Shown here one piece after another: positions 43,829-48,231 of a stretch of 64,000 bases of DNA. The translations under genes and the position numbers were made by a program. The notes under the pieces are model-generated. The model did no database searches, was not told where the DNA came from, and saw only the letters and a program-made list of their open reading frames with translations. Numbering within the stretch: the first letter of the stretch is position 1; every line of letters starts with the position of its first letter. The DNA is from Myxococcus stipitatus (GTDB lineage: Bacteria; Myxococcota; Myxococcia; Myxococcales; Myxococcaceae), in the NCBI RefSeq assembly GCF_038561935.1, contig NZ_CP102770.1, forward strand, positions 682,001 to 746,000, given 5' to 3'.

Positions 43829-44803
43829 CTACACGGGCGAGGGGTGGGTCGCCGCCGTCTCCGCCACGGCTTCGGCGCGAGGTGCGTCGGACGACAGCCC
43901 CGCCGCGCACAGGCTCACCACCGCCATCCACACGAAGTCCGCCATCAGCAGGTGCACCAGCTGCAGCCACACGGGCGCCAGCAGCACCACGTTCACCGCG
44001 CCCACCGCGAGCTGCGCGACGTACAGGCCCGTGATGACCGTCGCGGCGCGCTTCACGTCGGCGGACGGACGCAGCTTCGCCATCCACCGTCCGATGAAGA
44101 CCAGGAGCGCGCCCATGCTGATGGCCAGCACCGGGTGCAGCACCCTCCGGCGGACCAGGACGTGCGCCGTGTCGGAGACGTCCTGGCGCAGGCCCTCCAT
44201 CAGCGTCTCGGAGGGGAACAGCGTGTCGCCCAGCGCCGCGATGGCGCCGCTCACGCCCAGCAGCAACATGCCCGCGATGCTGAAGCCCACCAGCGCGCCC
44301 ACCCAGCCCTGGCCTCGGAACGTCAGGGGGGCGTGGCCTCGGGAGAACCACACCACCAGCGTCTGCGCGCCCACGAGCAGGAACGTGTTGACCAGGTGCA
44401 CGCCCATCCACACCGCGCGCCCCAGGGAGGCGTTGTCCGCCACGTACTTGAGGAGGACGATGCCCGCCCCCACCAGCGCCTCCGTCAGCATGAAGAACAG
44501 CGCCCAGCTCGCCGCCTTGCGCACCGGGTGGCCCTTGGCGTGTGCCCGGAGCGCCCACACGCACAACCCCAGCGCGAGCATCATCACCAGCCCGCTCGTC
44601 ACCCGGTGGGTGTACTCAATCATCGTCTGGATGGAGGGCTCGCGAGGCACCACCTCCCCATTGCAGACCGGCCAGTGGTCGCCGCAGCCCGCACCGGAGC
44701 CCGTGGCCCGGACGAACGCACCCCACAGAATCACCCCCAGCGTGAAGACCAGCACTCCGACGCTGAAGACCTGGAACCGACGTGACGAGGCGGCGTGATT
44801 CAT
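43829..44803 (-). CDS. ctaA: Heme A synthase (COX15/CtaA family)
   Basis: A 324-residue protein with eight transmembrane helices. It has the diagnostic segments GAFVRATGSGAGCGDHWPVCNG, EYTHRVTSGLVM (heme-ligand His), GVHLVNTFLLV, VLHPVLAISMG and LVHLLMADFVW. CtaA converts heme O to heme A for cytochrome c oxidase. The Cys pair in CGDHWPVC is the redox pair of some bacterial forms. ATG 44803 is preceded by AAGGGGAG; an upstream ATG at 44833 is less likely. Convergent with the permease fusion, 9 bp between stops. No cytochrome oxidase genes are adjacent. Confidence 0.92.
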   Translation of the reverse strand: MNHAASSRRFQVFSVGVLVFTLGVILWGAFVRATGSGAGCGDHWPVCNGEVVPREPSIQTMIEYTHRVTSGLVMMLALGLCVWALRAHAKGHPVRKAASWALFFMLTEALVGAGIVLLKYVADNASLGRAVWMGVHLVNTFLLVGAQTLVVWFSRGHAPLTFRGQGWVGALVGFSIAGMLLLGVSGAIAALGDTLFPSETLMEGLRQDVSDTAHVLVRRRVLHPVLAISMGALLVFIGRWMAKLRPSADVKRAATVITGLYVAQLAVGAVNVVLLAPVWLQLVHLLMADFVWMAVVSLCAAGLSSDAPRAEAVAETAATHPSPV

Positions 44804-45023
44804 CGCGCTCCCCTTAACCCACTTCGCCCCCACCCGCTGCCCGGCCCGGCCCCTCCCGCTTCACCCGGCCCATCAGCCCGGCTGCTCGGCCCCTGCCCCG
44901 CAGGGCTCACGCCGTATCCGGAAGGGCCTCGCCGGATGCTCCAGTCGCGCCGTTGGATATATGTGTGTGACGCCCCCACCCAATCGGATGATTTCCATTG
45001 AACACTTCGGGCCGCCTACGGGC
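44804..45023. other. Intergenic region upstream of heme A synthase and of the small RNA promoter
   Basis: About 220 bp, very C-rich from 44830 to 44940, then locally AT-rich (TTGGATATATGTGTGTGA, 44953-44970). It should hold the promoter of the heme A synthase gene. No ORF is supported. Confidence 0.45.
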
Positions 45024-45039
45024 TGGCACGTATGGTGCT
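45024..45039 (+). promoter_or_regulatory. Sigma-54 type promoter for the small RNA
   Basis: TGGCACGTATGGTGCT matches the -24/-12 consensus TGGCACG-N4-TTGCW: a full -24 element, 10 bases between GG and GC, and GTGC at -12. It predicts a start near 45050. The adjacent bEBP gene provides a candidate activator. Confidence 0.75.
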
Positions 45040-45049
45040 TAACGATTGG

Positions 45050-45174
45050 TCAGTGCGCGACGGACCTCTCCGGAGGCTGGCGACACACCGCTTGAACAGG
45101 AGACCGCTTCCGAGTGGTCCCGGTACCCAGGGGTCGAAGCTTCCCCCCTCTTCGACCCGTGGGTGCGTTCTTTC
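45050..45174 (+). ncRNA. pxr: Candidate sigma-54-dependent small RNA resembling Pxr
   Basis: No convincing ORF lies downstream of the sigma-54 promoter, but three hairpins follow in order. These are CCTC-TCCG-GAGG (45065-45076), GACCGCT-TCCG-AGTGGTC with a UNCG-type tetraloop and one G.U pair (45102-45119), and a 9-bp stem GGGTCGAAG / CTTCGACCC (45131-45158) whose 10-base loop CTTCCCCCCT holds a run of six C. A GTTCTTTC tail follows. From memory, M. xanthus Pxr is a small developmental-control RNA with a sigma-54 promoter, a C-run loop and a neighbouring enhancer-binding gene; this fits. The 3' end is estimated and identity is unconfirmed. Confidence 0.62.
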
Positions 45175-45235
45175 AGAGGCAGTCGGCGTCGATGCCTCGA
45201 TGGGTTCCCACAGGGGTGTGGGGAAACAGGGCGGG

Positions 45236-45267
45236 GCGCATCGCGGGTTGGGGAGGATTCCTCGCCC

Positions 45268-45283
<16 letters not shown>
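45236..45283. terminator. Bidirectional hairpin terminator
   Basis: Perfect 12-bp arms GCGCATCGCGGG (45236-45247) and CCCGCGATGCGC (45272-45283), with an inner GAGG-ATT-CCTC helix. The right arm includes the last codons of the enhancer-binding gene, whose stop is in the loop. It can end both the minus-strand gene and any long plus-strand read-through from the small RNA. Confidence 0.65.

Positions 45284-48231
<2,948 letters not shown>

Follow-up and report, generated by a model that had tools for sequence, protein, structure and literature searches.

The window, i.e., the whole 64-kb stretch of Myxococcus stipitatus DNA that was analyzed, carries a conserved small non-coding RNA gene of about 125 nt in the intergenic region between two minus-strand genes (about 45050-45174, plus strand). 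The upstream neighbour, divergent from the RNA, is a COX15/CtaA-family gene (43829-44833, minus strand; PF02628, 3e-33) that occupies the same position in other genera too and served as a syntenic marker. On the opposite side, a gene encoding a sigma-54 activator of the enhancer-binding protein type (45268-48231, minus strand; Pfam PF00158, 4.3e-66) is convergent with the RNA, and about 94 bases separate the RNA end from the activator stop codon. The encoded protein contains an AAA+ domain with the GAFTGA motif, a long middle region and a weak N-terminal helix-turn-helix (weak HTH_28/HTH_3 matches), while the domain search detected no receiver domain in it.

A sigma-54 promoter of the TGGCACG-N4-GTGCT type (TGGCACGTATGGTGCT) is located at 45024-45039 on the plus strand, where it reads TGGCACG-TATG-GTGCT, and its position predicts a transcript start near 45050 on the same strand. 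The pattern TGGCAYN6TGCW matched the 64-kb window at this place only; the chance expectation estimated from shuffles was 0.49 per window, making the match weak evidence if taken singly. The TGGCACG and GTGCTT blocks were unchanged in 22 of 22 aligned relatives, and TGGCA[CT]G-N5-TGCT was retained in nine activator-bearing genomes belonging to three other genera. The promoter proposed in the initial annotation was thus both read directly and recovered as invariant blocks in relatives, and the coordinates reported there were accurate. A conserved -24/-12 promoter precedes the RNA at a fixed position, as expected for a sigma-54-dependent small RNA.

Folding of a 136-nt stretch around the RNA returned an energy of -63.8 kcal/mol (z -2.85, with 2 of 200 shuffles equally good) and displayed the three plus-strand hairpins described earlier, the first two with UNCG-type loops and the third with a 9-bp stem and a loop of six Cs. 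Hairpin 1 (45053-45086), delineated by fold and alignment, bears a UCCG loop on a C-G closing pair; it is the least conserved of the hairpins, and two relatives, G009 and G022, have lost it. Hairpin 2 (45102-45119) shows a UNCG-type UCCG loop closed by U-A, whereas most relatives carry c(UUCG)g; every pair is kept in the alignment, with a compensatory change at one of them. Hairpin 3 (45123-45166) is composed of the inner 9-bp stem (45131-45139/45150-45158 in the fold) and of a 7-bp outer stem that was absent from the initial annotation. Its 10-nt loop CUUCCCCCCU (45140-45149) includes the C-run (C6, 45143-45148), 99.4% of its cells are paired in the alignment, and again one pair shows a compensatory change. 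The tail GUUCUUUC (45167-45174) lies 3' of hairpin 3 and is terminator-like together with it; hairpin 3 is probably the terminator of the RNA, since long U tracts come after it in genus g32. C-loop hairpins with a stem of at least 9 bp arise by chance at about 0.84 per simulated 64 kb, and hairpin 3 is therefore not significant by itself. The promoter count, the fold z and the C-loop hairpin rate are suggestive only, and the significance of the RNA derives from its conservation rather than from such single-sequence scores.

A DNA search retrieved the region from 22 of 61 genomes, that of M. stipitatus itself included, all from one genus. The C-run and most stem positions, like the promoter blocks, were invariant in the resulting alignment. 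Pairing in the RNAalifold structure was retained in 98.8% of cells and fell to 45-52% when the partners were slid by 1-3 columns. The covariation score exceeded those of all 500 shuffles; two-sided changes occurred at only three pairs, a count not above that of the shuffles (76/500). As to coding potential, the earlier statement that no ORF is convincing held: the predicted transcript has no ATG start in the window copy, and the GTG/TTG frames are broken by indels among relatives, leaving no conserved reading frame. A locus in which the frame is not conserved and the covariation score is reached by 0 of 500 shuffles has the character of a structured non-coding RNA. The possibility that it encodes a small protein is close to negligible, as the GTG frames of about 40 codons that traverse many copies are shifted by indels, the hairpin pairs covary, and the GTG is so close to the predicted 5' end (4 nt) that a ribosome site has no room.

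The distribution of the RNA was examined with a covariance model (R1), which matched 27 of 27 genus genomes. In 26 of them the match was full-length and located at the syntenic COX15/activator locus, with E-values from 1.2e-28 to 8.8e-19. In the remaining genome, G025, the activator-bearing contig breaks off near the expected RNA site, and the match recorded (1.3e-4, 33 bits) corresponds to a different place. The M. stipitatus genome holds a single full-length copy, the next R1 match having an E-value of 1.3. The locus also occurs in M. xanthus (RNA in L016; contig NZ_JABFNS010000037.1, L030). When the search was widened to 96 family genomes, further COX15-adjacent matches appeared in genera g8, g30, g4 and g32, and the order COX15-RNA-activator was preserved in g8 (6 genomes), g30 (2) and g4 (1). 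Inspection of the sequence 5' of COX15 yielded further loci in G101 and G099, where the promoter accompanies C-loop hairpins, and in G091 and G092, where the hairpin stands alone. The C-run loop is kept across Myxococcaceae genera, the run itself being near-constant and its flanking bases variable. Genus g31 gave R1 matches in 0 of 16 genomes, and eight upstream regions scanned there showed no promoter, no activator site and no comparable C-loop hairpin. Two weak R1 matches (L148 and L150) lie elsewhere in their genomes and were discarded as chance-like. At the g32 loci (L137, L143, L167, L168) the C-loop hairpin is kept together with neither an activator nor a sigma-54 match, which suggests that the promoter type was exchanged in this genus. 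Rfam 15 contains no family for the window RNA, a search at E 10 giving chance-like matches only, and no description was found in the open-licence literature. The RNA is a real conserved family of a known general kind, absent from Rfam 15 and apparently undescribed so far.

Several candidate activator sites were recognized ahead of the promoter. The candidate enhancer site GGATGATTTCC (44986-44996) begins 38 bases upstream of it. Further out, TTGGATAT (44953-44960) contains a TTGGATA that is invariant in 22 relatives, and TTGGAT precedes the promoter by 69-72 bases in 26 of 26 genus loci checked; a distal TATCCGG ... CGGAT inverted pair (44915-44937, about 100 bases upstream) forms a conserved block in 22 relatives. 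Of 96 family genomes, 36 have the activator gene, and the promoter was seen in all 35 loci examined that combine activator and RNA. In 34 of these 35 loci GGATGATTTCC lies 37-39 bases upstream of the promoter, twice as the one-base variant GGATGATGTCC; the exception, G029, shows by eye a diverged GGATGTCATCC at the site. Neither GGATGATTTCC nor GGATGATGTCC occurs in any of six loci lacking the activator (0/6), four of which, in g32, have no promoter match either, the other two being G101 and G099. Since the association was counted over related genomes, it represents few independent events; it provides good evidence, weakened by shared ancestry, that activator and GGATGATTTCC belong together, and a linked activator with candidate upstream sites is what a sigma-54-dependent small RNA would be expected to show. 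The convergent enhancer-binding protein is therefore the probable activator of the RNA, and GGATGATTTCC would be its binding site. In G101 and G099, promoter and hairpins persist with neither an adjacent activator nor the site, so that another activator can presumably serve, or the activator has moved.

The stretch that separates the RNA from the stop codon of the activator gene contains a hairpin element, TTCCCACAGGGGTGTGGGGAA (45205-45225), that is invariant in 22 genus relatives (copies L001-L022), occurs also in g30 (L142, L144) and has no U tract. It is followed by an inverted repeat, GCGCATCGCGGG...CCCGCGATGCGC (45237-45282), that extends over the stop codon; the genus alignment shows this repeat to be conserved. 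These elements, the convergent arrangement and the short distance to the stop codon would also suit a cis-acting role, in which the region would work as a terminator, or as antisense read-through limiting the activator by transcriptional interference or by pairing with its 3' UTR. Moreover, the loop GUUUCCCC of the M. xanthus-group copies is complementary to GGGGAAAC within the TTCCCACAGGGGTGTGGGGAA element. We regard such a role as unlikely, however, because the four g32 genomes devoid of the activator still keep the RNA hairpin, promoter and hairpins are likewise retained without it in G101 and G099, and hairpin 3 is itself terminator-like, with the long U tract in g32.

The initial annotation had taken the RNA for the M. 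stipitatus orthologue of Pxr, the model small RNA of myxobacterial development, which blocks fruiting-body development, is processed from a long to a short form, and whose direct targets are largely unknown (PMC11928866). The resemblance in design was borne out, the orthology was not. A Pxr query assembled from the published primers and probe (PMC5568312, PMC5684412) gave one match in the genome (C1:1421016-1421118, 92%), and the Rfam model RF01812, whose cut-off is 80 bits, scored 120.3 bits at the same place (G000:C1:1421011-1421118). At the window locus RF01812 returned no match at the gathering cut-off nor at E 10. The true pxr gene (L090) thus lies about 0.69 Mb from the window RNA, directly 3' of pxrR, an NtrC-type response regulator gene whose orientation it shares; it precedes an acetyltransferase-like gene, has its own sigma-54 promoter and contains a seven-C run in stem-loop 1. 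This arrangement corresponds to the published layout, in which pxr is expected downstream of pxrR, co-directional with it and before MXAN_1079/pxrA. The window RNA instead has COX15 on one side and, on the other, a convergent activator in which no receiver was found. The critical C-run of Pxr lies in the loop of its first stem-loop, SL1 (PMC5684412, PMC5568312), whereas that of the window RNA is in hairpin 3, the last one.

Comparison of the two genes confirmed their separateness. UUCCCCCC, in hairpin 3 here and in SL1 of Pxr, is the only stretch common to both; the longest shared word is the 8-mer TTCCCCCC, and the global alignment, suggested earlier as a check of orthology, yielded nothing beyond it, 23 of 500 shuffles being as good. 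A 30-base SL1 pattern with six Cs had found no match in the genome at 3 mismatches allowed, because the gene has seven Cs, and the longer query did match it. The description of Pxr in the initial annotation was sound, only tied to the wrong gene, and its remark that the C-run is one base shorter than in Pxr compared two different genes. Orthology is therefore refuted by RF01812, direct search and synteny. A reading as pxr orthologue, or as a duplicated paralogue of the kind seen in Cystobacter, controlling fruiting-body development, would have in its favour the sigma-54 promoter, the three hairpins, the C-run loop, the UUCUUU-type 3' end and the shared 8-mer; given the evidence above, and as the Cystobacter paralogues are in tandem at the pxr locus itself (PMC5568312), we consider it highly improbable. 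Very probably, the window RNA is a non-coding RNA dependent on sigma-54. In design it is Pxr-like, with a comparable size (about 110-125 nt), a U-rich 3' end, an apical-loop C-run containing UUCCCCCC, an adjoining sigma-54 activator gene and a distribution in Myxococcaceae. It is a separate family, differing in locus, in the hairpin that holds the C-run and in its candidate activator, which is convergent and may carry an N-terminal HTH but showed no receiver, whereas pxr has the response regulator pxrR upstream. A sigma-54 promoter with a C-run alone is insufficient to identify Pxr. Overall, the comparative data support a real and conserved RNA gene, its structure and promoter, its separateness from Pxr, and the joint occurrence of the activator gene and the promoter-linked site.

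As for function, we consider it probable that the locus encodes a distinct, conserved Myxococcaceae sigma-54-dependent small RNA that is activated by the convergent protein and uses its C-loop as a seed to repress mRNAs with G-rich sites. In the proposed mechanism, the activator would sense some signal, bind GGATGATTTCC and the related upstream sites and fire sigma-54 polymerase at 45024-45039, giving a transcript about 125 nt long with its end at the terminator-like hairpin. Hairpin 3 would keep its C6-C7 loop open as a seed that pairs with G-rich stretches of mRNAs, ribosome-binding sites being the most plausible location, and so represses the targets; the Pxr loop presents the same UUCCCCCC, and the two RNAs may share targets. 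We infer the transcription of the RNA and its direct activation by the neighbouring protein, as well as target repression and, by analogy with Pxr, the seed role of the loop. The C-loop is a natural seed candidate because a C-to-A change in the Pxr C-run loop abolishes function with the RNA still present (PMC5568312, PMC5684412).

A search of the M. stipitatus genome for a sigma-54 consensus followed 44-104 bases on by a C6 run found four places, against two for the reversed control. Two of the four are the window RNA and pxr; the other two are L172 (G000:C1:360319-360387) and L173 (G000:C1:459687-459764). The exact complement of the loop, GAGGGGGGAA, occurs at 24 sites in the genome versus 15 for the reversed pattern, and of 20 such sites inspected in the close relative G013, several are just 5' of a start codon. 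This small search found no conserved target, the best case being a 205-aa ORF with the G-run in near relatives only. Alternatively, the C-run loop might be a protein site, acting as a decoy or by titration and not by base pairing. A run that is near-constant among variable neighbouring bases would agree with this reading, as would the tandem C-loop hairpins of several relatives, expected of a multi-site decoy, and the absence of an hfq homologue from M. xanthus (PMC5684412). However, a single such hairpin is all that is kept in the window species, in the M. xanthus group and in others. Furthermore, we know of no C-run-binding regulator in these bacteria, and binding of a protein in place of mRNA appears improbable.

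The proposed mechanism has parallels in other bacteria. Sigma-54-dependent small RNAs are known elsewhere, the Qrr RNAs with LuxO and CrcZ with CbrB, in which an activator and sigma-54 likewise drive a trans-acting regulatory RNA; the window activator differs in not being a response regulator, M. xanthus lacks an hfq homologue, and the likeness is one of arrangement, with no relation in sequence expected. The Staphylococcus UCCC-loop RNAs also expose a C-rich loop, through which they presumably pair, but are unrelated in sequence and host to the window RNA. The same holds for PmaR of Agrobacterium (PMC6234868).

The window RNA thus plausibly works like Pxr, and myxobacteria seem to have two C-loop RNAs of the Pxr type rather than one. 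A second sigma-54-dependent C-run RNA with a candidate dedicated activator would offer a handle on shared targets, cross-talk and redundancy in M. xanthus. More tentatively, Myxococcaceae may possess a class of sigma-54-dependent RNAs with one C6-C7 loop seed, each with its own activator and all acting on the same target set. If this were true, two independent signals, one through pxrR-Pxr and the other through the receiver-less activator and the window RNA, would feed one target set, and the window RNA would act as another gate, so far unrecognised, on development or the nutrient response, M. xanthus included.

Other C-loop hairpins were observed in the family. At L149 (G025:C148:15377-15483, minus strand), a separate locus with no sigma-54 promoter near the hairpin, a terminator-like hairpin with loop GGTTCCCCCCCTCC is perhaps another C-loop RNA. 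Many relatives carry a second C-run-loop hairpin about 70 bases past hairpin 3 (L005-L009, L011, L013, L014, L018, L019, L021, L022 and the g8/g30 loci); neither the window lineage nor the M. xanthus group has it, and in g8 it is terminator-like.
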